Assembly: GCA_025517465.1 (NCBI GenBank)
Contig: JAOPKE010000002.1
Coordinates: 310,001 to 374,000 of the forward strand
Source of the DNA: Halobacteria archaeon HArc-gm2
GTDB lineage: Archaea > Halobacteriota > Halobacteria > Halobacteriales > Haloarculaceae
Length of the DNA stretch: 64,000 nucleotides
Direction: 5' to 3'
Made by a program: the position numbers and the translations under genes. The notes under the pieces are model-generated. The model saw only the letters and a list, made by a program, of their open reading frames with translations. It searched no databases and was not told the origin of the DNA. Below are positions 23,044 to 52,821 of the stretch, piece after piece (the first letter of the stretch is position 1; each line of letters opens with the position of its first letter).

Positions 23044-24240
23044 ATGCGGTACCGCCGGGCTCTCGCCGTCGCCGTGCTGGTCGTCCTCGTCACGACGGCA
23101 GTCGTCGTCGCCGCGGAACTGAACAGCGACCCGCGGGTCGGGCCCGGACCGAACGACGTTCGCCTCGTCGACATGGAGACGGGCGACGACCGCCTCTGGC
23201 CCTACACCAGCCGGCACGCGGACTTCGCTTCGCGGACGCTGGCCATCAACCTCATCGTCTACGACGACCCCGAGGTCGTTCGCTATCGGCTCGAACGGCG
23301 CTCGAACGCGACCTGGACCGAACTCAACGAGTCCGAGGAGACGGCGAACTTCAGCATCGAACTGACCGAGGAACGGGTCGGGTTCGACTGGCACTCGGCC
23401 CACGGCGCGATGCGCTACACCTACGTCGAGCGCGACGGACGGGGCCGGTGGCTCCCCCAGCGCTACCAGTTGCACGCCGGCACCTACCTCGGGACACGCT
23501 CGCACGTCAGAGTGTACGCGCCCGGGGGCGACAGCGAGTGGAGCGCCATCCAGGCACACAGCGAGTACTGGGACTGGTTCCGCATGCGCCACGGCGTCAC
23601 CGACGTCTGGGGCACTAGCCGGCAACTGGAGGAGGACTTCGCCGACCAGCCCCTCGTCTCGGACGTCGAGCGGGCCTACGCGACCGAACGGGGTCCGATG
23701 TCCGACGGGATCTCCGTGGTCCACGTCGCCTCGGTGCTGCTCGCGGTCTCGGTGCCCGCGGTCCGCCGGCGAGTCACCGCAGTGGCCGACGAAGCCGGAC
23801 TGGCGACGCCGACCCGACGCCGCTCGGTCGCGCTGTTCGGCTTCGCGCTGGCCGTCCCTCTCGTCGTCCGGGGCGCCGGAATCGGGCTGGAACAGGCGCT
23901 CCCGTGGCTCCCGCCGAAACTGATCGCTGCACCGCTGTACGTCGTCCTCGTCGCCGGGCTCCCCGTCGGCGTCTACCGGCTGAGCGAGGACGTTCCGACC
24001 GAGCGGGCCGTCGCCCTCGCGGTGATGGGGTTCCTCGCCGGCATCACGCTGGACGCCGTGGCCATGGACGTCACGGCGACGGTGATGGCGCGGTACGCCT
24101 GGCACCGCCTGGCGCTGGCTGTCGGCCTCGGCGCTATCGCTGGCGGGACGCGAGAACCGGGCCGGTCGCGCACGTTGCTCACCGCGGGATTCTGTCTCTG
24201 GTCGGCCGCGGTACTGGCGGCCGCACTGGACGTCATCTGA
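23044..24240 (+). CDS. Membrane protein with extracytoplasmic N-terminal domain, unknown
   Basis: 398 residues. Residues 5-24 form a signal-anchor helix. Residues about 25-220 are a soluble, probably external domain rich in aromatic and charged residues (WPYTSRHADF, YVERDGRGRWLPQRYQLHAG, EYWDWFRMRHGV). Five or six membrane helices follow (about 228-395). No enzyme motif is recognised. It starts a same-strand run with a solute-binding lipoprotein and a PAP2 enzyme, which suggests a job at the cell surface. Confidence 0.75.
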   Translation: MRYRRALAVAVLVVLVTTAVVVAAELNSDPRVGPGPNDVRLVDMETGDDRLWPYTSRHADFASRTLAINLIVYDDPEVVRYRLERRSNATWTELNESEETANFSIELTEERVGFDWHSAHGAMRYTYVERDGRGRWLPQRYQLHAGTYLGTRSHVRVYAPGGDSEWSAIQAHSEYWDWFRMRHGVTDVWGTSRQLEEDFADQPLVSDVERAYATERGPMSDGISVVHVASVLLAVSVPAVRRRVTAVADEAGLATPTRRRSVALFGFALAVPLVVRGAGIGLEQALPWLPPKLIAAPLYVVLVAGLPVGVYRLSEDVPTERAVALAVMGFLAGITLDAVAMDVTATVMARYAWHRLALAVGLGAIAGGTREPGRSRTLLTAGFCLWSAAVLAAALDVI

Positions 24241-24293: not shown

Positions 24294-26072
24294 ATGACTC
24301 CGCCGGTCGACCGCCCCTCCACGACAGCGACCCGGCGAGCCGTACTGGCAGGTGTCGCTGGCAGTATGGCCGCCACGAGCGGTTGCGTCAGCCGTCTGCG
24401 AACGGTGATGGGCCGCGAGCGCCCGGACCCGGTGACCGTGACGATCAAGACCGTCCCCGCGGACGACGACCCCTACGCCCTGTTGATCGCTCGCCAGCTA
24501 TCCGAGTGGCTTCGCGCCGCGGGGATCAACGCCAACGTCCTGCCGATGGCGAGCGAGGAACTGCTCCGACAGGTGCTGGTCAACCACGAGTACGACCTGT
24601 TCGTCGGCCGCTATCCGGACTCGACCCTCGACGCCGACTCGCTGTACTCGCTGTTGCACTCCCAGTTCGCCACGGAGCCGGGCTGGCAGAACCCCTTCGG
24701 CTACGCTAACCTCTCGGTCGACGACCTGCTGGCGCGCCAGCGAACCACCGACGGTGACGAACGGCGCCAGGCGGTCGCCGACCTCCAGTCGACCGTCGCC
24801 CGCGAGAACCCCTTCACGGTGCTGGCCTTCCCGGACGTCATCCGCGCCGCCCGGGACGACCGGTACTCGCGATTCGGGACGACCAGGAGCGACGAGGCGC
24901 TGGGCATGCTCCAGTTGCACCGCGCCGACGACGGCGCCGACGCGCTCCGCGTGACGACGACCGACGAGCGCGTCACCAGTACCCTCAACCCGCTGCTGGC
25001 CTCGGTCGGCCGGGTCGGGACCGTCACCGACCTGATCTACGACCCGCTGGTCCGGCGCTACCGGGGCGAGCGCTACCCCTGGCTCGCCGAGTCGACGACG
25101 TGGGTCGAAGACGGCGTCCTCGAAGCGACGCTCAGGCCCGACCTCTCCTTCCACGACGGCGAGGCGCTGACCGCCGACGACGTCGTCTTCTCGTACAGAT
25201 TCCTCCGCGACACCGCAAGCGGCGAGCGAAACCGGGCGGCGCCGACCATGCGCTTTCGCGGCCGGTCGACGCTGGCCGAATCGGTCACCGCGCCCGACCG
25301 GCGAACGGTCAGACTCACGTTCGGTGAGGAGACGGACTCGGTCGCGGAACGCGCGCTGACTGTGCCGATCCTCCCCCGCCACGTGTGGACGGAGCGGACT
25401 GGCGAGCCCAGGGTCGGCGGCCTCGACCTGGGTGGCGGGACGACGGAGGCGCTCGTCACCGCCAACGTCCCGCCGGTCGGGAGCGGGCCACTCGCGTTCG
25501 TCAGCGCGACGCGCAACGACCGGCTCGTCCTGAAGCGGTTCGCGGACCACTTCCTCGAGACGGCGGACACGCCGGCGTTACCCGACGCGGTGGCCGACGG
25601 CGCCGCCTTCGAGGAACTCGTGATGAAACACGTCGGGTCGGACTCCTCCGCCGTCGACCTGGTCGACTCCGGGGACGCGGACCTGACGCTCGCCGGGCTC
25701 GGTCCCGGCGTCCTGCGACGCATCGGGCAGGCCGACGAGCTGGACCTGCTCGTCGACCGCTCGCAGTCGTTTTACTTCCTGGGGTTTAACACCCGCCGGG
25801 CGCCGTACGCGAACCCCCGCTTTCGACAGCTCATCGCACAGCTCGTCGACAGACGCCACCTGGTGCAGTCCGTCTTTTCGACGTTCGCCGCCCCCGCCAT
25901 CTCGCCACTGGCACGCACCGACTGGGTCACCGACGACCTGACCTGGCGCGGCCGAGACCCGATCACTCCGTTCATCGGGGCCGCGGGGGAAGTCGACGAC
26001 GCCCAGGCCCGGGCGGCGTTCCGTGAGGCCGGCTACCAGTACGACGAGCAGGGCCGACTGCTGGGGGTCTGA
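24294..26072 (+). CDS. Solute-binding lipoprotein, family 5, apparently circularly permuted
   Basis: 592 residues. The N terminus (TRRAVLAGVAGSMAATSGC, lipid Cys31) is a Tat lipobox. Residues 216-592 match the family-5 (peptide/oligosaccharide) receptor from its usual beginning (STLNPLL, IYDPLVRRY, LSFHDGEALTADDVVFSY) through NPRFRQLIAQLVDRR and stop after AGYQYDEQGRLLG. In ordinary members that block is followed by the last 150 or so residues of the fold; here that piece (VTIKTVPADDDPYALLIARQ ... DLFVGRY) stands first, at residues 46-198. No permease or ATPase gene adjoins it, so it may act in sensing or in cell-surface chemistry. Gene end is 2 bases before the PAP2 ATG. Confidence 0.88.
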   Translation: MTPPVDRPSTTATRRAVLAGVAGSMAATSGCVSRLRTVMGRERPDPVTVTIKTVPADDDPYALLIARQLSEWLRAAGINANVLPMASEELLRQVLVNHEYDLFVGRYPDSTLDADSLYSLLHSQFATEPGWQNPFGYANLSVDDLLARQRTTDGDERRQAVADLQSTVARENPFTVLAFPDVIRAARDDRYSRFGTTRSDEALGMLQLHRADDGADALRVTTTDERVTSTLNPLLASVGRVGTVTDLIYDPLVRRYRGERYPWLAESTTWVEDGVLEATLRPDLSFHDGEALTADDVVFSYRFLRDTASGERNRAAPTMRFRGRSTLAESVTAPDRRTVRLTFGEETDSVAERALTVPILPRHVWTERTGEPRVGGLDLGGGTTEALVTANVPPVGSGPLAFVSATRNDRLVLKRFADHFLETADTPALPDAVADGAAFEELVMKHVGSDSSAVDLVDSGDADLTLAGLGPGVLRRIGQADELDLLVDRSQSFYFLGFNTRRAPYANPRFRQLIAQLVDRRHLVQSVFSTFAAPAISPLARTDWVTDDLTWRGRDPITPFIGAAGEVDDAQARAAFREAGYQYDEQGRLLGV

Positions 26073-26073
26073 G

Positions 26074-26862
26074 ATGGGGCTGCTGGCCGTCGTCGTGGAG
26101 GTGGTGACCGCAGTGAGCCTGTTGCTGGTGACGACCGCCGCAGCCGTCGTCGGTCCGGAGCGACTCCGGCGGCTCCGGTGGACGCTGCGCGGCCGCGTTC
26201 GCGGCGCCCTCGGACCGATCGTCGCGCTCGCGGTGGTCCTCGCGATCAACGCCGTCGTCCGTGACGTCGGCCTGGAGCTGTCCTGGCTCGTCGGCGTCAA
26301 CGTCACGGCGGCCATCTACGCCGTCGAGGGCGAGTTCGTCGCCTGGTTCCAGTCGCTCGGGACGCCCGCCGTCACCACGGTGCTTGGCTACGTCTACGTC
26401 TACGGGTACGCCTTCCTCGTCACCTTCCCGCTGGTGGCGTATCTGGCTCTGGAGGACCAGCGATACCTCCGCGCGACTGCGACGGCCTACGTCGTCAACT
26501 ACGGCGTCGGCCTGGTCTGTTACGTACTCTTTATCGCCTACGGCCCCCGGAACTACATGCCCGACATGGTCCAGTCGTTGCTGTACGACGCATTGCCGCG
26601 GTTCCAGCTGCTGACGAGCGAGATCAACACGAACACGAACGTCTTCCCCTCGCTGCACACCTCGCTGTCTGCGACCGTCGCGTTGCTGGCCGTCCGGACG
26701 CGCGATATCTATCCGCGCTGGTTGCCGGTGGCATCGGTTCTCGCCGTGCTCGTCGCGCTCGCGACGATGTACCTCGGCATCCACTGGGCGACCGACGTGG
26801 TCGCCGGACTCGTCCTGGCCACGGGGGCCGTCGCCGTCGCCTCGCGAGTCCACTCCATCTAG
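26074..26862 (+). CDS. PAP2-superfamily membrane phosphatase/phosphotransferase
   Basis: 262 residues from ATG 26074, directly behind the binding lipoprotein. Six membrane segments. The acid-phosphatase motifs are visible: the PSLHTS histidine block near residue 195 and the final HWATDVVAGLVLA with the second catalytic His and Asp. The arrangement, with a long central insertion (YGPRNYMPDM), is like inositol-phosphorylceramide-synthase-type PAP2 members, which move a polar head group between lipids. It may remodel lipid or polyprenyl-phosphate carriers for the neighbouring glycosyltransferase. It converges with that gene in a shared CTAG. Confidence 0.88.
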   Translation: MGLLAVVVEVVTAVSLLLVTTAAAVVGPERLRRLRWTLRGRVRGALGPIVALAVVLAINAVVRDVGLELSWLVGVNVTAAIYAVEGEFVAWFQSLGTPAVTTVLGYVYVYGYAFLVTFPLVAYLALEDQRYLRATATAYVVNYGVGLVCYVLFIAYGPRNYMPDMVQSLLYDALPRFQLLTSEINTNTNVFPSLHTSLSATVALLAVRTRDIYPRWLPVASVLAVLVALATMYLGIHWATDVVAGLVLATGAVAVASRVHSI

Positions 26863-28463
26863 CCGTCGCCGTTCCCGGTAGCACTACTGCCACCCACACC
26901 ACCGCCACCGTCGCCGACGTCGCGGACCCGGAAGACGACGACGCCCTCGTTCTCGAACACCGGCTCGTACCGCTCGCGATGGGCGAGCGACCGGTCGAGC
27001 GTGCCGAAGTTCGCCTGGTCGAAGCCGCGGACGGTGTAGTGGCCCTTCGGGACGTAGAGGTAGTCCGGCTCCTGTTCGACGCTGGCGGTCCACCGTTCCA
27101 CGCAGCCGGCCGACTGGCACGTCGACGCGTTCACGTACGTGCCGAGGTGGCGCTCGTAGGTGGCCGGCTCGCGCCACTCCATCCCCCACGGGCCGAGGAG
27201 GATGGTCCGGTCGGCCACCACCGGGAACCACTCTGCCGCGTCGCCGAGCACGACGAACGTGGCATCCGGCGACGTCTCGGTGCCGGCCCACTCCATCGCC
27301 GCGACGTCCGCGTCGTCGACGAACGCCGGCGTCGTGTCGCCCGTCCGCTCGTCGAACTCGTAGCCGACGGCACCGACACCGGCCGTCGCGACGACGACGA
27401 GCGCGACCATCGCCAGTTCCCGTCGGTGCTCCCTGACTGTCGGCGACCACGAGCTACCCCTGTCGACGAGGACGACCGCCGCGCCGACGAACGCGAACGC
27501 GCCCACGGTGTAGGCGAAGCGGGGCTGTTTGAACAGGAACTCGGCGGCGAGGAGCCAGACTCCGATCACTCGCCAGCCGCCGAGGACGGCGACGGCGCCA
27601 GCGGCGAGGACGAGGAGGGACCACGTCGAGACGCCCGACAGCGCCGCGAACAGGCCGCCGCCGACGCCGCCGTGGGTCCCCGCGGCGGACGTGAACACGT
27701 CGAACCCGAACCGCGAGGCGACGGTCAGCCACCACGGGGCGGTGAGGACGAGGCCGCCGACGCCGACGACGGCGCCGTCGAGGAGGCCGGGCACGGAGCG
27801 GTCGTAGCCCGCCCAGAACACGAGGTAGGTCACGACGACGAACAGCGCGTACGTCGGATGAGTCAGCAGGACGAGCGCGAACAGCGGGAGTCCGACTGCC
27901 ACCCACTCCCGGTCGCGGTCGCGGAAGATCCGGAGGGCGGCGTACGCACCCGAGAGCGCGAGCAGGAATGCCGGCGCGCGGACGAGTCCGCCAGCGCTGA
28001 CGTGCCACTCCAGGACCTGCGGGTTCACCGTGACGAGGATTGCTGCGGCCGCCCCCCGGGGACGGCCGTCGAGCAGGTCCCTGCCCAGCAGGTAGGCGGG
28101 GACGAGGGCGAGGACGACGACCAGCGGCGGGACGAACCGTGCCGCTGCGAACGCGCCGGCCCCCAGGTCCCGCAGGACGGCGAGCGCGTAGAACGCCAGC
28201 GGCGGGTAGGCGAAGGGGACGCCCTCGGCGGTGTAGTGGGGTATCGTCTCCGGCAGTCCGTAGCCCGCCGCGCGTATCTCGTCGGCCGTGAGCGTGTACA
28301 GTCCCGCCCCGTAGGCGGGGTACTGGTTGAGCGCGAGGTAGAGGCCCGCGACGACCAGGCCCACGAGCAGCGCGCCGCCGAGCCAGGGGCGGTCCCGCCG
28401 GTCGAGGGGGACCTGCAGTCGATGGAACCGGTCGGCCGAGCGGGTGAACAGGCGGTAGCTCAT
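26859..28463 (-). CDS. GT-C type membrane glycosyltransferase
   Basis: 534 residues from ATG 28463. About eleven membrane helices in residues 30-385, then an extracytoplasmic C-terminal domain (about 390-534). The first outer loop holds the acidic motif (TADEIRAAGY) and PFAYPPLAFY, typical of GT-C enzymes that use polyprenyl-phosphate sugars (PMT/ArnT/AglB-like fold). The substrate is unknown; surface glycolipids, S-layer glycans or pili are candidates. Its ATG overlaps the stop of the ASST-like gene (ATGA), so the two are co-translated. The tail is a glycine/serine-rich stretch. Confidence 0.82.
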   Translation of the reverse strand: MSYRLFTRSADRFHRLQVPLDRRDRPWLGGALLVGLVVAGLYLALNQYPAYGAGLYTLTADEIRAAGYGLPETIPHYTAEGVPFAYPPLAFYALAVLRDLGAGAFAAARFVPPLVVVLALVPAYLLGRDLLDGRPRGAAAAILVTVNPQVLEWHVSAGGLVRAPAFLLALSGAYAALRIFRDRDREWVAVGLPLFALVLLTHPTYALFVVVTYLVFWAGYDRSVPGLLDGAVVGVGGLVLTAPWWLTVASRFGFDVFTSAAGTHGGVGGGLFAALSGVSTWSLLVLAAGAVAVLGGWRVIGVWLLAAEFLFKQPRFAYTVGAFAFVGAAVVLVDRGSSWSPTVREHRRELAMVALVVVATAGVGAVGYEFDERTGDTTPAFVDDADVAAMEWAGTETSPDATFVVLGDAAEWFPVVADRTILLGPWGMEWREPATYERHLGTYVNASTCQSAGCVERWTASVEQEPDYLYVPKGHYTVRGFDQANFGTLDRSLAHRERYEPVFENEGVVVFRVRDVGDGGGGVGGSSATGNGDG

Positions 28464-29854
28464 CGGCGGCGGACGTCGAGTGGTGACTGGAGGTCGACCT
28501 GCAGGTCGGCCCGGCGCCACTCGTGGCGCGCCCAGAGCGGGACGGCCACGAGCAGACCCACCGCGGCCACGATCTGGAGGGGACCGACCCATGAGGGGAG
28601 CAGGTAGATGATTCCGTTGACGACCGGCTTCGGCAACAGGTCGAGGACCGACTGGGACGCCTGCTCGGTCCCGGAGTCGGCGGACGGTTCGCGGCTCGTC
28701 AGGTCCAGACTGGCGGCGCTCTCGCCGCCCGCGCTCTCGTCGCCGGTCCCCAGGCGTTCGGCCTCGTACGGGAAGCCGACGTCGACGCTCCAGACGACGC
28801 TCCCGTTGGGGGCGACTTCGATCACTCGATTCCCGTTGGAGTCGGTGACGAGCGTGTTGCCGTTCGGCAGTCGGTCGGCGTCGCGGGGCCACTGGAGGCG
28901 GCGGTCTTCCCAGGACCAGGACTGCTCCCAGTCACCGTCTTCGCGCTGGTACTCCACGACGCGGCCGTTCTCCGAGTCGGCGACGACGACGGCTGGCCCG
29001 CCCCGCTCGGCGGGGACGAAGTCGGGGTTGTGCTGTTCGTATATCGTGTCGTAGTCGTCCTCGCTCCCGAGGGTCCACTCGTCCATGAGCCCCTGTTCCA
29101 TATCGACGAAGACGACCTGGTCCTGGTTGCGCAGGCTGATCATGACGACGTCGCGGCCGTCGATTTCGACGAGTTCGACGTCGTTCAGGTGCGTCCAGTC
29201 CTCGGGGTAGGGGCCGCCGCTGTCGGTGTCGAAGTCGGCCTGGGCGTCCCACTCCCACTCGACGAGCTGGGTCGTCGTGTTGACGACGTAGGCGCGGTCG
29301 CGGTCGATGTCGGCGACGAGGAGTCGGTGCTCGTCGATCCGGTCGACGTCGTGCCACCGGGTCGAGTGCTTTCCGGGCGTGATCCGGCTGTAGACGTCGG
29401 TCACGTCGCCGGTGGTGAGGTTGACGCGCTCGACGCCGTTGCGCGTACAGACCGTCTCTGCGTCGCACTCGTCGGCGTCGAGGTGGTCGGCGTAGACGTA
29501 CTCCACGGTCGCGTCGGTTCCGGCGACGGGGTCGACGTCCCAGTAACGCGTGTGTGAGTTGTTGTGGTAGTAGATACTCCCGTCGGGGGCGAGGGCGACC
29601 AGTTCCGCGCGCTCGCGGGGACCGGACCCCTCGTCGGTGACGAACGCCGTCGAGTCCGTCGCGATGACGGTGATGTTCTCGCGGGGTTCGACGATCGGGT
29701 CGCGGTCCCCGGTTTCGAAGGCGCGTTCGAGGCTCGATTCGTCGCGGAGCTCGTCGCCGGTGACCTGGGGCGCCGCGTAACTCACCAGGAGCGTCGCCGC
29801 GAAGACAACGGAGACGACGGCGAAGACCAGTCTGACCCTGTCGGAACCGACCAT
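28460..29854 (-). CDS. Membrane-anchored arylsulfotransferase (ASST)-like beta-propeller
   Basis: 464 residues. The N-terminal helix (about 8-28) and a C-terminal helix (about 425-447) anchor an external domain of around 370 residues. Repeated blade motifs (GRDVVMISLRNQDQVVFVD, ENGRVVEYQREDGDWEQSWSW, LPNGNTLVTDSNGNRVIEV) are those of ASST-type propellers. Characterised ASSTs move sulfate between phenols without PAPS; catalytic use here is not proven because the key His/Arg set could not be checked. First gene of a two-gene unit with the glycosyltransferase; sulfated surface glycans or glycolipids, which haloarchaea do make, are a reasonable guess. Confidence 0.8.
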   Translation of the reverse strand: MVGSDRVRLVFAVVSVVFAATLLVSYAAPQVTGDELRDESSLERAFETGDRDPIVEPRENITVIATDSTAFVTDEGSGPRERAELVALAPDGSIYYHNNSHTRYWDVDPVAGTDATVEYVYADHLDADECDAETVCTRNGVERVNLTTGDVTDVYSRITPGKHSTRWHDVDRIDEHRLLVADIDRDRAYVVNTTTQLVEWEWDAQADFDTDSGGPYPEDWTHLNDVELVEIDGRDVVMISLRNQDQVVFVDMEQGLMDEWTLGSEDDYDTIYEQHNPDFVPAERGGPAVVVADSENGRVVEYQREDGDWEQSWSWEDRRLQWPRDADRLPNGNTLVTDSNGNRVIEVAPNGSVVWSVDVGFPYEAERLGTGDESAGGESAASLDLTSREPSADSGTEQASQSVLDLLPKPVVNGIIYLLPSWVGPLQIVAAVGLLVAVPLWARHEWRRADLQVDLQSPLDVRRR

Positions 29855-38189: not shown

Positions 38190-40328
38190 ATGCGGGAAAC
38201 TGACAATAACCGCGAGAAGTTGTCGCGACGACGGTACGCGCAACTGGTAGCTGGATCGAGTGCGGCAGCACTGGCCGGCTGTCCGGAGTCGGGGTCCGAG
38301 GGAACCGAGACGGAACCCGCCACGAGCGAATCGGACACTGACGAGTCGACGACCACGGACGGGGACTCGACGCCCGATCCGAGCAACCGGATGACCGACA
38401 CCGTCCGCGTGTTCGTGTTGAACACGCCGGACACCTTCGACTGGAATCCCCACACGCCACAGGACAACACCACTGGCGACCTGTTCATGTCCGAACTGCA
38501 CGGCATGTCGAACTCCCACGATACGTCGAAGCGCCTCCACGGCGACGACGCGACGTTCGACGCGCCGTGGGTCCAGGGGAAAGACGAGATCAGCCTCGTC
38601 ACCTGGATCAAGGACTGGGAGGTCGAACCGCCCTACGACCTGTGGAACACCCACGACGAGCGCTCCACGTTCTGGAACGGCGAGCCCAACGACGCCGAGA
38701 CCCGGTACAAGTACGACAAGGTGCGCTACTTCGTCGAGGGCAACAAGTTCCAGGAGGGCCAGATCCACCGTGCCGAGGCCGAGAGCCAGTGGCGCTACCA
38801 CTTCTGGCACGCCAGAGCCGAGGTCGAGGGCGCGGACGACGACCCGGCGAACGAACCGCTGCTCGCCGACGAGGCGGCGGCGACCGACGGCGACCCGCCG
38901 CTCCCGCAGGAGTGGAGCGACCCGAAGCTACGGGAGTTCGACGCCGCCGGGACCCAGGAGCGGTACAACGAGGTCATCAGCAACGTCCGCGGCGACCGCG
39001 TCTCGCTCGAACGGCTGGCCGAGAACGGCTGGGGGACGGGCCCGTACGAACTCCGCTCGACCGACGACATCGGCTCCGACCGCGCCATCCTCCGGCTCCG
39101 CGACGAGGACGCCGAGTCGCCACATCCCCACCGCGAGCACATCAACATCCCCAAACTCCAGCTCCAGTTCGGTAACGAGGACCGTGAGCAGACGCTGGCG
39201 AACAACGGCGCCATCGACGTCCACGCCGGGTCCATCACGCCCAACAACACCTGGAATCCGGAGAGCCTCCCGGACCACGTCGACAACGTCACCACCTATC
39301 TGCGCCCGAACGGCGGCGACTCGTGGTGGTTCAACTGGAACAACCCGCACCTCGGACGGCTGTGGGTCCGACGGGCGCTCGTCACGGCCATCGACTGGAA
39401 CGTCGTGGGCGCGAACGGCTGGGGCGACCAGCGCTCCGTCCCGCTCGAACACGACACCGGAATGCTCGACGCCCACTCCGAGTCGACGTTCTCCGAGGAG
39501 TTCCTGAACAGCCTCCACTCCTGGCCGAAGGAGGCCGACGTCGAGACCGCCAACGAGTACATGAAGCGGGCGGGCTACACGAAGAACGGCAACATCTGGG
39601 TCGACCCCGACGGCAACGACTTCAAGCTCGACGTCCTCATCACCTCGAACATCGAGGACTGGATCGGTGCCGGCCAGACCATCCGGCAGCAACTCCGCAA
39701 CTTCGGCGTGGACGCGACGTTCACCCAGCAGGACTGGGGGACGTGGTCGAACAACCTGGACACGTTCAACAACGAAGAGCCGAACTTCGACACCTCGATC
39801 CACTGGTACAACCAGCCGACCCGCTTCGGCTACTACAAGTCCCAGGCCGCGTGGTGGGACAACGCGTCGCTGCTCGGCGGCGACCCCAACGCTACCGGGT
39901 CGGACCGCCGCGCCGTCGACCCCGACGACGAGTTCACCATCAAGGGCGAAGTCGTGCAGGCCCATCTGCCGACCAAGGTGGGCTCAATCGAGGCCCCCGA
40001 CCAGGCCGGGCAGCAGCCCGACCTCGAGGGCGTCACCGACTACGAGGAGGTGAACATGGCCGAAGTGGTCGAGAACATCCGGAAGCCCGCCGATTCGGAA
40101 GAAGAGCTCCAGGAGCGCTTCCGGACGTGTGCCCGGTACTACAACTACTACGTGCCGAAGTTCGCGTTCCACCAGTACACCTACGGCGAGTGGGCGAACG
40201 TCCGCGACTTCGACTGGCCCGGGGAGGACGACGACGCCCTGGACTGGGAGCGGAGCTTCAACATCACGGACACCGTCACGCTGGGCGGTATCGCCCAGGC
40301 CAGCTACGACTCCGAGATGGACCGCTGA
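38190..40328 (+). CDS. Family-5 solute-binding lipoprotein, probable oligosaccharide receptor
   Basis: 712 residues, long for the family. SRRRYAQLV plus AALAGC (lipid Cys31) form a Tat lipobox, followed by an acidic Ser/Thr spacer (about 32-68). The fold is in the normal order: FDWNPHTP at the start, GPYELRS, WVRRALVTAIDW, YMKRAGYTKNG, then the C-terminal lobe (DFKLDVLITSN, ANVRDFDWPGED). Peptide- and oligosaccharide-binding members cannot be told apart by family alone; xylanase neighbours and the importer at 48504 favour xylo- or gluco-oligosaccharides. It is a paralogue of the receptor at 40451 (shared W-x-N-x-R-D-F block near the end). Confidence 0.9.
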   Translation: MRETDNNREKLSRRRYAQLVAGSSAAALAGCPESGSEGTETEPATSESDTDESTTTDGDSTPDPSNRMTDTVRVFVLNTPDTFDWNPHTPQDNTTGDLFMSELHGMSNSHDTSKRLHGDDATFDAPWVQGKDEISLVTWIKDWEVEPPYDLWNTHDERSTFWNGEPNDAETRYKYDKVRYFVEGNKFQEGQIHRAEAESQWRYHFWHARAEVEGADDDPANEPLLADEAAATDGDPPLPQEWSDPKLREFDAAGTQERYNEVISNVRGDRVSLERLAENGWGTGPYELRSTDDIGSDRAILRLRDEDAESPHPHREHINIPKLQLQFGNEDREQTLANNGAIDVHAGSITPNNTWNPESLPDHVDNVTTYLRPNGGDSWWFNWNNPHLGRLWVRRALVTAIDWNVVGANGWGDQRSVPLEHDTGMLDAHSESTFSEEFLNSLHSWPKEADVETANEYMKRAGYTKNGNIWVDPDGNDFKLDVLITSNIEDWIGAGQTIRQQLRNFGVDATFTQQDWGTWSNNLDTFNNEEPNFDTSIHWYNQPTRFGYYKSQAAWWDNASLLGGDPNATGSDRRAVDPDDEFTIKGEVVQAHLPTKVGSIEAPDQAGQQPDLEGVTDYEEVNMAEVVENIRKPADSEEELQERFRTCARYYNYYVPKFAFHQYTYGEWANVRDFDWPGEDDDALDWERSFNITDTVTLGGIAQASYDSEMDR

Positions 40329-48503: not shown

Positions 48504-49523
48504 ATGCGATACTATGTCAGACGCATAGCGCAGTCAGTGTTTACCTTGTTGTCGGGACTGTTCCTGACCTACGCCCTGTATCGCCTCATCCCGGGGAGTC
48601 CGCTGAAGGCGATCATGGCCAACCTCATCGCCCAACAGCAACGCAGGGGGGAGGTAGACACCGAACAGGTCGCGAGGATGGCCGAGCAGATGACGGGGAT
48701 CAACCCGGACGAACCGATCATCGTCGGATTCTTCAACTACGTCAGCGGGATCGTCTTGCGCGGGGACTTCGGGACCTCGATCCTCTACCAGGACCCGGTG
48801 TTCGACATCCTCTTCCGGGCGATGCCGTGGTCCATCTTCCTCAGCGTCTACGGCATCATGCTCGGGTTCACAGCGAGTATCCTCGTCGGCGTGCTGATGG
48901 CCTGGCACGAGGGCTCGAAGCTCGACTCCGGGCTGACGGTGCTGGTCCTCTCGGTGAACGCCATCCCGTACTACGTCGGCGCGATCGTCATGCTCTCGCT
49001 GCTGGCGTTCCAGTGGGGACTGTTCCCGACCGGCGGTCGGGCGCCGCGGGCAGTCGCGCCGGGATTCAACGTCCAGTTCATGCTGGGTATCCTCCATCAC
49101 GGGGCGTTACCGATCCTGTCCACGTTCCTCCTCGGGTTCGGCGCGGGTTCGCTCGGGATGCGGGCTAACACCGTCCGCATCGTCGGCTCCGACTACCTCC
49201 GGTCGGCGCGCCTGCGGGGGGTGAGCAGCAACCGCATCCTCACCCGATACCTGACCCGGAACGCGATACTGCCGCTGTACACGGGACTGGTCGTGGGAAT
49301 CGGCGCGCTGTTCGCGTCGAACGTCATCACGGAGTACATCTTCCAGTACCAGGGCGCCGGGTGGTTCCTGTTCGAGTCCGTGGTCAATCAGGACTACCCG
49401 CTGATCATGGGGTCGTTCCTCTTCTTCGGCACCGTGACGGTGCTCGGCATCCTGCTCGCCGACCTCACGTACGGCCTCATCGACCCGCGTGCGGAAACCG
49501 GCGCAACGAGGGATACCTTCTAA
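48504..49523 (+). CDS. ABC importer permease, DppB type
   Basis: 339 residues, six membrane helices. The start is typical of DppB/OppB permeases (MRYYVRRIAQSVFTLLSGLF), with the DEPIIVGFFNYVSGIVLRGDFG block and, near residue 240, the EAA-like loop LRSARLRGVSSNRILTRYLTRN (cut: LRSARLRGVSS is the part contacting the ATPase). First gene of a four-gene operon and placed right after the dyad-flanked promoter. Substrate: peptides or, more likely here, oligosaccharides imported for the cytoplasmic xylanase. Confidence 0.92.
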   Translation: MRYYVRRIAQSVFTLLSGLFLTYALYRLIPGSPLKAIMANLIAQQQRRGEVDTEQVARMAEQMTGINPDEPIIVGFFNYVSGIVLRGDFGTSILYQDPVFDILFRAMPWSIFLSVYGIMLGFTASILVGVLMAWHEGSKLDSGLTVLVLSVNAIPYYVGAIVMLSLLAFQWGLFPTGGRAPRAVAPGFNVQFMLGILHHGALPILSTFLLGFGAGSLGMRANTVRIVGSDYLRSARLRGVSSNRILTRYLTRNAILPLYTGLVVGIGALFASNVITEYIFQYQGAGWFLFESVVNQDYPLIMGSFLFFGTVTVLGILLADLTYGLIDPRAETGATRDTF

Positions 49524-49524
49524 C

Positions 49525-50541
49525 ATGTCACGAGACGACCTCGAGACGGACGGCGGCGTCACGCAGGAGAGCATCTTCGGAACCGGTGAGGACGAGCGGC
49601 GCAGTCGGTCCTCGCCGAAGGAACGCTTCGGCAGGGGGTTCGACTCCTACGTGCGAACGCCCTTCCGGATCGCCTGGAACGACTGGCGGACCCGCATCGG
49701 CGGCATCGGCATCCTGATCTACCTCCTGATGGGCACGGTCGGCGTCATCATCGTACCAGCGCCGACGCTGAACGAGGGGCCGCGCTACCTCCAGCCGTTC
49801 CAGGACTGGACGATTCCGTTCGGCACCGACAACCTCGGTCGCGGCATCTTCAAACAGCTCATTCACTCGACGCCCGCAATGTTGAAGATGGCGCTGGCCG
49901 GCCTCGTCTTCGCCGTCGGTGTCGCCATCCTCTTCGGCATGATCGCCGGCTACAAGGGCGGCGTCATCGACACCGTGCTGATGACCATCACGGACATCTT
50001 CTTCGTGATCCCGGGGCTCCCGCTCATCATCGTCCTGTCGGCCATCTTCACGCCGCGGGACCCCTTCATCGTCGGCGCCATCCTCTCCATCTCCGTCTGG
50101 CCCCGGCTCGCCAGGGAGTTACGCTCGCAGGTCCTCTCGTTACGGACGGAGGACTACGTCGAGGCCTCACGCTCGATGGGGCTGTCGACGCCGACCATCA
50201 TCGGCCAGGAACTCATGCCGAAGCTCGCCCCCTACATCCTCATCCGCGGGTCGGGGTCCGCGGTGCGGATCATCAGGGACTCGGTCGCGCTGTACTTCCT
50301 GGGCATCCTGCCCTTCAGCACGACCAACTGGGGCATCATGATGCAGTTCGCCTACAGCCAGGGGAACGCAATCTCGACGCCGAGTCACCTCTACTGGCTG
50401 GTCGTTCCCCTCGTCGCGCTGGCGGGGATGGGCTTTTCACTGATCCTGTTTTCGCAGGGCCTCGACCGGGTGTTCAACCCGCGACTCCGGGCCCGGAACA
50501 CGGAACACGGTGCCGACGAAGACGGGACAGGGGTGATGTGA
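49525..50541 (+). CDS. ABC importer permease, DppC type
   Basis: 338 residues, one base after the dppB-like stop. A hydrophilic N-terminal arm of about 55 residues, then a first helix (IGGIGILIYLLMGTVGVIIV), a long external loop with the DppC-like FGTDNLGRGIF, and five more helices. The cytoplasmic EAA loop reads YVEASRSMGLSTPTIIGQEL. Pairs with the 48504 product to form the channel. Same operon. Confidence 0.92.
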   Translation: MSRDDLETDGGVTQESIFGTGEDERRSRSSPKERFGRGFDSYVRTPFRIAWNDWRTRIGGIGILIYLLMGTVGVIIVPAPTLNEGPRYLQPFQDWTIPFGTDNLGRGIFKQLIHSTPAMLKMALAGLVFAVGVAILFGMIAGYKGGVIDTVLMTITDIFFVIPGLPLIIVLSAIFTPRDPFIVGAILSISVWPRLARELRSQVLSLRTEDYVEASRSMGLSTPTIIGQELMPKLAPYILIRGSGSAVRIIRDSVALYFLGILPFSTTNWGIMMQFAYSQGNAISTPSHLYWLVVPLVALAGMGFSLILFSQGLDRVFNPRLRARNTEHGADEDGTGVM

Positions 50542-50542
50542 G

Positions 50543-51670
50543 ATGGCGATAGACCAGCCGGGAACGACCGGCACGCCCGACGCAGACGAGGACGAACCGG
50601 AAGATATCGTCATGTCGGTCCGCGACGCGCGGGTGTCCTTCGACATGGCCCGCGGGCAGGCGTGGGTGCTCAACGACGTCGACCTCGACGTCCGGCGCAA
50701 CGAGATTCTCGCCGTCGTCGGCGAGTCCGGGTCGGGCAAGTCGATGTTCGCCTCGGCGCTGCTCGACGCCGTCGAGGACCCCGGCGTGCTCGCCGGTGAC
50801 GTCACCTACTACCCGGACGAGGCGGCCGGGGAGAGCCAGACCATCGGCTCGTTCGACCAGGGACTCGACGACTCCGTGGACGTGCTGGACCTGGACTCGG
50901 ACGAACTGCAGGCGTTCCGGTGGGAGAAGGTCTCGATGGTGTTCCAGGGGGCGATGAACTCGTTCAACCCCACGATGAAGATCAAGGCTCACTTCCACGA
51001 GACCATCCAGGCCCACAACGCGGTCCTCGAGGAGCGGATGGACCACGTCCGGAAGCTCTTCGACGCGCTGTACATCGACTTCGACCGCGTGATGACGTCC
51101 TACCCCCACGAACTCTCCGGCGGGATCAAACAGCGGACGCTGATCGCGCTGGCGCTGGTGCTGGAACCCGAGGTGCTCGTGATGGACGAGCCCACCGCCG
51201 CGCTCGACCTGTTGATGCAGCGCTCTATCATCTCGATGCTGCGCAACCTCCGCGACGAGTTCGACCTCACCATCGTGTTCATCACGCACGACCTGCCGCT
51301 GGTCGGCGGCCTCGCGGACCGCATCGCCGTGATGTACGCCTTCGAGTTCGTAGAGGTCGGCGCGACGCGGGACCTCATGAAGAACGCCGCCCATCCGTAC
51401 ACCCGTTCGCTGTTGCGGTCGGTGCCGAGCATCAACTCGGACGTCGACGAGATGGAACCGATCGAGGGGGCGCGGCCGGACCCGGTCAACATCCCGACCG
51501 GCTGTTCGTTCCACCCGCGCTGTCCCGTCGCCGACGACCGCTGTGAGATCGAGGACCCGGACCTGGCCGCCGTCGAGGACGACCTCCAGGCGGCGTGTTT
51601 CTACACCGACCAGGCGCGCGAGAAGATCGACTACACGCTGGAAGACGAATCCACGGAGGACGACAGATGA
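50543..51670 (+). CDS. ABC importer ATPase, DppD type
   Basis: 375 residues. Walker A GESGSGKS (60-67), Q-loop in MVFQGAMNSFNP, signature LSGGIKQR, Walker B VLVMDEPT with AALD, and switch His in FITHDLPL. About 45 residues (EAAGESQTIGSFDQGLDDSVDV) are inserted between Walker A and the Q-loop, longer than usual. The C-terminal oligopeptide/dipeptide domain carries the four-cysteine pattern (GCSFHPRCPVADDRC and AACF) that in relatives can bind an Fe-S cluster. ATGA overlap with the next ATPase. Confidence 0.93.
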   Translation: MAIDQPGTTGTPDADEDEPEDIVMSVRDARVSFDMARGQAWVLNDVDLDVRRNEILAVVGESGSGKSMFASALLDAVEDPGVLAGDVTYYPDEAAGESQTIGSFDQGLDDSVDVLDLDSDELQAFRWEKVSMVFQGAMNSFNPTMKIKAHFHETIQAHNAVLEERMDHVRKLFDALYIDFDRVMTSYPHELSGGIKQRTLIALALVLEPEVLVMDEPTAALDLLMQRSIISMLRNLRDEFDLTIVFITHDLPLVGGLADRIAVMYAFEFVEVGATRDLMKNAAHPYTRSLLRSVPSINSDVDEMEPIEGARPDPVNIPTGCSFHPRCPVADDRCEIEDPDLAAVEDDLQAACFYTDQAREKIDYTLEDESTEDDR

Positions 51671-52821
51671 GCACCGACGACGCGACCGACGGGGAACAGC
51701 ACGACGAGGAAGCCGAGCACGCCGACGAACCCCTCCTCTCGCTTTCGGACGTCGAGGTCCACTACGATACGGGGACCGGCATCGAGCGCTACCTCAGCGA
51801 CAAGCGCGTGAAGGCCGTCGACGGGGTGGACCTCGAACTCGAGGAGAACGACATCGTCGTGCTGGTCGGCGAGTCGGGGTGTGGGAAGACGACGCTCGGG
51901 AAGTCCGCTGTCGGGCTCGAACGGCCGACTGGTGGCTCCGTGAAGTACCGCGGCCAGGACATCTGGGAGGCCAAGGACCACCCCAGAGGGGCCGACATCG
52001 AGTTCCGGGAGATCCGCCGGGCGATGCAGATCATCCACCAGGACCCGGCGAACGCGCTCAACGCCTCGCGTCGGGTGCGGGCCATCCTGTCCGACCCGCT
52101 GAAGAAGTACCGGACGGAACTCGGCCCGCAGGAACGCGAGGAGACGATCTACCGCTACCTGGAGTACGTGGACATGACGCCGGCGGAGGACTACGCCGAC
52201 CGGTACCCCCACCAGCTCTCGGGCGGCGAGAAACAGCGCATCACGCTCGGGCGCGCGCTGTTGATGAACCCGGACGTCATCCTGGCCGACGAGGCGATCA
52301 GCGCGCTGGACGTCTCCCTGCGCGTCGAGATGATGGACCTCATCCTCGACCTGCAGGAGACGTTCGACACCTCCTACGTCTTCATCTCGCACGACCTGGC
52401 GAACGCCCGCTACCTGGCCAAGCGGGCCGGCGGCCGGATCGCCATCATGTACCTCGGCAACATCGTCGAGATCGGCGGTCCGGACGAGGTGATCCAGAAC
52501 CCGAGCCATCCCTACACGGAGGTACTCCGGTGGTCGACGCCCTCGATGGACCCGGACGTCGCGATGGAACGGATCAAGGAGAAACCGCCCGTGCGTCAGA
52601 TCGACGTTCCCGACCCGCAGGACCCGCCGTCGGGCTGTGCGTTCCACCCGCGCTGTACGAAGGCCCGGGAGGCCTGCGCCGAGGGGGCACCGGAACTGTA
52701 CGACGCGGAGGAAACCGAGGCGGCCTGTTTCCGGGCCCTCGACAACCACGAGTACTGGTCGAGTCCGGAACTCGAGGACGCCGAGGGCTCCGGGACGGCG
52801 GAACTCGGCGTCGGCGACTAA
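51667..52821 (+). CDS. ABC importer ATPase, DppF type
   Basis: 384 residues. Walker A GESGCGKTT (around 72-80), Q-loop in QIIHQDPANALN, signature LSGGEKQR, Walker B VILADEAISALD, switch His in FISHDLAN. The C-terminal domain again has the cysteine set CAFHPRCTKAREAC and AACF. With the two permeases and the DppD-like ATPase this completes an importer; binding proteins are supplied in trans by 38190 and 40451. Last gene of the operon. Confidence 0.93.
   Translation: MSTDDATDGEQHDEEAEHADEPLLSLSDVEVHYDTGTGIERYLSDKRVKAVDGVDLELEENDIVVLVGESGCGKTTLGKSAVGLERPTGGSVKYRGQDIWEAKDHPRGADIEFREIRRAMQIIHQDPANALNASRRVRAILSDPLKKYRTELGPQEREETIYRYLEYVDMTPAEDYADRYPHQLSGGEKQRITLGRALLMNPDVILADEAISALDVSLRVEMMDLILDLQETFDTSYVFISHDLANARYLAKRAGGRIAIMYLGNIVEIGGPDEVIQNPSHPYTEVLRWSTPSMDPDVAMERIKEKPPVRQIDVPDPQDPPSGCAFHPRCTKAREACAEGAPELYDAEETEAACFRALDNHEYWSSPELEDAEGSGTAELGVGD

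Follow-up and report, generated by a model that had tools for sequence, protein, structure and literature searches.

A haloarchaeal family-5 solute-binding lipoprotein with the sequence and predicted fold of a circular permutant, encoded beside a PAP2 membrane enzyme

The receptor gene described here lies in a 64,000-nucleotide stretch of DNA from Halobacteria archaeon HArc-gm2 (the window) and encodes a lipoprotein of solute-binding family 5 (Pfam SBP_bac_5). As judged from sequence profiles and structure models, the protein is circularly permuted, with the canonical C-terminal lobe moved to the front of the chain. The first-pass annotation of the DNA had proposed this rearrangement, and the split of the family profile, the match recovered on re-ordering, the matches of the front lobe to the C-terminal ends of solved receptors, the predicted fold of that lobe and the order of parts across the family all agreed with it. 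The open reading frame, the lipobox and the boundaries between the parts also lay where they had been placed (Table 1). We think it likely that the permuted receptor once served import and was taken over as the partner of a PAP2 lipid-phosphate enzyme, which is the explanation that best accounts for the observations as a whole.

Table 1. Features of the receptor gene and of its immediate neighbors (window coordinates)
Feature	Position	Strand	Basis
Membrane protein upstream of the receptor, 398 aa, outer domain followed by several hydrophobic segments	23044..24240	+	Homologue in about 20 of 55 loci
Circularly permuted family-5 solute-binding lipoprotein (from sequence and model), 592 aa	24294..26072	+	Pfam, colinear relatives, AlphaFold model
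Predicted twin-arginine signal peptide and lipobox	24294..24386	+	RR at residues 14-15, GC at 30-31; inferred from motifs
Front lobe, residues 46-198, equivalent to the canonical C-terminal lobe	24429..24887	+	Pfam, PDB profile matches, lobe fold
Linker, residues 199-215, bridging the old C- and N-termini	24888..24938	+	Alignment
Core, residues 216-592, equivalent to the canonical N-terminal and middle part	24939..26069	+	Pfam profile 3-283
PAP2 superfamily polytopic membrane enzyme, 262 aa	26074..26862	+	PAP2_3 3.5e-18, PAP2 3.5e-11

The native receptor scored 157.9 bits against SBP_bac_5 (cut-off, 32.4), which makes it a member of the family by sequence. Its match was split in two, however, the best stretch aligning residues 261 to 586 with profile positions 3 to 283 of 368, and the end of the profile was absent at the C-terminus, where the core stops in the loop following AGYQYDEQGRLLG. 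Tested separately, residues 213 to 592 matched profile positions 3 to 283 with 141 bits, and residues 34 to 212 matched positions 289 to 362. We then put the front part back behind the core, a check that the first-pass annotation had suggested, and this canonical order gave one continuous match to positions 3 to 362 at 171.5 bits. NCBIfam models agreed, a NikA-type model being matched unbroken at 155 to 477 once the receptor had been re-ordered. Both lobes of the family are complete (profile positions 3 to 283 plus 289 to 362, in a model with a pLDDT of 88), but the C-terminal lobe comes first, so that the protein is a permuted member of SBP_bac_5 by homology. The two other family-5 receptors in the window, at 38190 and 40451, gave Pfam matches that reached profile positions 339 and 348 and are of normal order, as had been noted.

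A profile of the front lobe, built from 34 relatives, matched 80 PDB sequences at an E value of ≤0.01. All of the 60 matches listed were to peptide/nickel-type solute-binding proteins, at or near the C-terminal end; they included AppA (1xoc; E, 3.1e-18; chain positions 363 to 497) and DppA (1dpp; chain positions 357 to 486). None of the solved chains listed was matched over its full length in permuted order. The lobe profile fell after the core in about 35 normal-order receptors and before it in about 80 permuted proteins. Three loci (L109 from Clostridium, L113, and L143) that had seemed permuted from a single tblastn range were shown to have the normal arrangement.

AlphaFold modeled the whole receptor with a pLDDT of 88.0 and a pTM of 0.85, and the front lobe folded separately with a pLDDT of 82.6. 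When the front-lobe model was searched with Foldseek, family-5-type proteins were found throughout the 50 matches listed, each over about 130 columns. The whole model, in a sequential Foldseek search, matched family-5 structures through its core only, with TM scores of about 0.4 to 0.5; such values fit a permutant and are no proof by themselves, since a sequential search is blind to permutation. That the best native Pfam stretch stops at position 283 would also be expected if residues 46 to 198 were an unrelated extra domain ahead of a truncated receptor. The front part, however, supplies exactly the missing profile positions and corresponds to the C-terminal ends of solved receptors, and its own fold retrieves family-5 receptors, so we regard an extra domain as highly improbable.

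Colinear relatives of the receptor, with 38 to 97% identity, were found across many haloarchaea, which excludes chance and misassembly as the source of the order. We found no evidence in support of two genes having been falsely joined by assembly or gene calling; the receptor is encoded in one uninterrupted frame, and because the same order of parts is common to more than 100 haloarchaeal genomes, it cannot be an assembly error. The chance of a false join is therefore vanishingly small. Among 194 high-quality genomes drawn from across the class, 126 (about two thirds) had a strong match to the receptor. A copy in Halobacterium sp. CBA1126 (L098:7001-8512) matched the core without the front-lobe profile in the same frame and had a PAP2 gene downstream, possibly reflecting a frameshift or decay.

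The RR and GC residues of the signal were invariant in 24 relatives of the receptor, as in haloarchaeal Tat lipoproteins, and Cys31 is the predicted lipidation site. In the alignment of relatives, the linker was highly variable in length; the shortest had fewer than 20 residues, whereas that of Halorubrum was long and acidic. We interpret this variable joint as what a linker replacing two former termini should show. Domain-swapped dimers of the permuted receptor may be possible.

More distant permuted relatives, with 22 to 28% identity, were present in other haloarchaea, in Alphaproteobacteria (Aliihoeflea, Pararhodobacter, Roseibium, and probably Paracoccus), in an Anaerolineae MAG, and in a Desulfobacteraceae MAG. 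Their Pfam matches stopped at profile positions 284 to 286, close to the C-terminus. In this permuted sister group, DppB/DppC-type genes came directly after the receptor gene on the same strand in all 14 loci with enough flanking sequence, and ATPase genes were present as well in 13 of them; judged from gene order, these proteins are import receptors. The transporter-linked permuted group, with its dppBC(DF)-type genes (loci L063 to L069, L093 to L100, L107, and L121), has apparently gone unrecognized.

To place the permutation, we built a tree of the core and ran an AU test of single origin on 43 rows. Forcing the 24 permuted rows into one clade gave a likelihood 1.88 above that of the free search (p-AU, 0.55); as the constrained clade was slightly likelier, a single origin is the simplest account. 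One contig-end fragment of apparently normal order (L116) fell among the permuted rows in this weakly resolved tree. Most likely the permutation arose once, in a transporter-linked receptor common to haloarchaea and bacteria, a conclusion that is supported but not proven.

In the window, a single base separates the receptor stop codon from the ATG of the PAP2 gene. The PAP2 gene was the immediate, co-oriented neighbor of the receptor gene in 52 of the 55 loci of the window's clade, a set in which some genomes were present in both collections. The exceptions were L050, L057, and L060, the last of which is cut by a contig end. Strong matches to receptor and PAP2 protein occurred in the identical 126 of the 194 genomes, the remaining 68 giving strong matches to neither, and both presence patterns showed clear gaps in E value. 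The co-occurrence had a Fisher p of about 4e-54, a value that ignores kinship, and it could stem in part from inheritance as one operon. Several genera include members with both genes and members with neither, and in one genome (G205) the two genes were on different contigs and both were retained. The PAP2 protein, mentioned by the first-pass annotation as a mere neighbor, is thus adjacent as described and in fact a conserved partner.

The PAP2 motifs PSLH and HxxxD were at least 90% conserved among 52 relatives, which places the partner in the PAP2 superfamily. The substrates of PAP2 enzymes are lipid or polyprenyl phosphates, and the active site lies on the external side of the membrane; the motifs of the partner point to lipid-phosphate or lipid-linked chemistry on that side. 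PgpB and undecaprenyl-diphosphatase are PAP2 enzymes too; the partner resembles PgpB weakly, with scores that stay well under the curated cut-offs of NCBIfam. Some loci, from Natrinema, Halovivax and relatives, have a permuted receptor on either side of a single PAP2 gene (L048, L049, L077, L078, L080, L082, L083, L084, and L092).

The first-pass annotation had taken the lack of an adjoining transporter as a sign of a role other than import, with the permutation as part of the reason. The first half of this argument held. An Opp/Dpp transporter was found near the receptor in none of the 55 loci of the window's clade. Moreover, domain searches of three near-complete genomes (about 99%) that have both receptor and PAP2 genes (G121, G133, and G178) found no oligo_HPY ATPase, no OppC_N permease, and no family-5 receptor besides the permuted one; a fourth genome, G106, was similar apart from one weak ATPase match (5.4e-5). 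In haloarchaea the OppC_N search has low sensitivity: it gave one match in the window's genome, which has about three permease pairs of this kind. The case for a missing importer therefore depends mainly on the ATPase and receptor searches. In these three genomes, the permuted receptor can hardly serve a known Opp/Dpp importer. The second half of the argument failed, since genes of the permuted sister group are part of dppBCDF-type operons; permutation by itself does not mean that there is no transport. An Opp/Dpp-type permease pair with two ATPases does occur in the window at 48879 to 52677, about 23 kb downstream and past the receptors at 38190 and 40451.

These results bear on the alternative that the lipoprotein is an orphan import receptor, supplying a nutrient to an ABC importer of the Opp/Dpp type whose genes lie elsewhere in the genome, with the PAP2 gene a bystander. 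Its fold is that of an import receptor, gene order marks its permuted sisters as import receptors, and Opp/Dpp ATPases are encoded in most genomes of the sample. Set against this are the importer-free genomes, the transporter-free loci, and the exact co-occurrence with PAP2, and we consider an orphan importer rather improbable. The data support the view that members of the window's clade are not import receptors.

Binding proteins serve taxis or signaling in some prokaryotes, including with some haloarchaeal taxis transducers, and the first-pass annotation had suggested a sensing or surface-processing role. A lipoprotein that binds a solute and signals via a membrane transducer would fit both the surface anchoring of the receptor and the lack of a transporter nearby. 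The partner common to nearly all loci, however, is a PAP2 membrane enzyme (the neighbor clusters were annotated in part), and none of our results spoke in favor of sensing, which we judge to be unlikely.

A route to the arrangement that we favor, recruitment from import to work with the PAP2 enzyme, can be outlined. Sequence profiles and model show the old N- and C-termini joined by the linker and new termini in the loop that follows the EAGYxYDxxGxL helix, which leaves the predicted lipid anchor on the former C-terminal lobe. The permutation would have arisen first in a transporter-linked receptor, and the window's clade would later have left ABC import and been coupled to the PAP2 enzyme encoded one base downstream, a coupling that we infer from the observed gene order and co-occurrence. 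The lobes of the receptor probably close around a ligand at the outer membrane surface, be it a polar head group or a molecule that is phosphorylated or glycosylated, and the receptor would present this ligand to the PAP2 enzyme, a lipid phosphatase or phosphotransferase, or gate that enzyme, in a way comparable to the steering of lipoglycan synthesis by LpqW. More tentatively, and with some doubt, the receptor, permuted first within an ABC importer, could have become an obligate outer-face subunit of the PAP2 enzyme; the two genes would then make up a ligand-gated lipid-phosphate system of haloarchaea in which the permutation positions the lipid anchor such that the cleft is turned toward the enzyme.

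We know of no PAP2 partner of LpqW, and our likening of the receptor to LpqW-like regulators is by analogy only. LpqW is a mycobacterial lipoprotein that regulates membrane glycolipid/lipoglycan synthesis and is not involved in import (PMC3229680, PMC12421883). As a lipoprotein without a transporter, it is the nearest functional analogue of the receptor, and its structure (PDB 2grv) was among the family-5 matches to the front lobe, the matched part lying late in the chain (406 to 466), as expected of canonical order. With LpqW as the first example, the haloarchaeal receptor is a candidate for a second import receptor drawn into envelope-lipid chemistry, and the PAP2 pairing offers a testable function for a protein that about two thirds of the sampled genomes encode.

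The receptor shares family, fold, and all parts with AppA, DppA, OppA, NikA, and NikZ, but differs from canonical SBP_bac_5 proteins in that its parts are rotated, its anchor is on the other lobe, and its clade has no importer nearby. Natural permutation has been described in two other families of binding proteins. The Treponema glucose receptor TpMglB-2 (Tp0684) is a lipid-anchored natural permutant, whose authors raised anchoring as a possible reason for the permutation (PMC4990184). Unlike the haloarchaeal receptor, it is a type I/cluster B sugar receptor with another cut site and is encoded with its ABC transporter; the receptor belongs to family 5 and hence not to the TpMglB-2-type cluster Bc. 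The glycine-betaine binding proteins OpuAC and ProX are circularly permuted relative to each other (CPSARST, PMC2395249); this permutation is likewise natural, but they are of a different family and are import receptors. We found no report of natural circular permutation within family 5 in the open-access literature, and permuted family-5 proteins pass for ordinary SBP_bac_5 matches. The occurrence of transporter-linked beside transporter-free permuted clades raises directly the question of how permutation affects docking and anchoring.

The first-pass annotation had also asked whether haloarchaeal relatives share the neighbors of the receptor. This was true of the PAP2 gene, as it was of the order of parts, but not of the PMT-like glycosyltransferase and ASST-like protein encoded on the opposite strand at 26859 to 29854, which were near the receptor in only about 7 of the 55 loci and are not a general association. 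The membrane protein encoded upstream of the receptor gave no Pfam or NCBIfam match above the cut-off, and a guess from its motifs that it is LssY_C-like found no support in either collection. Its outer domain carries WPYTSR and HxGTYLGTRxHVR motifs.
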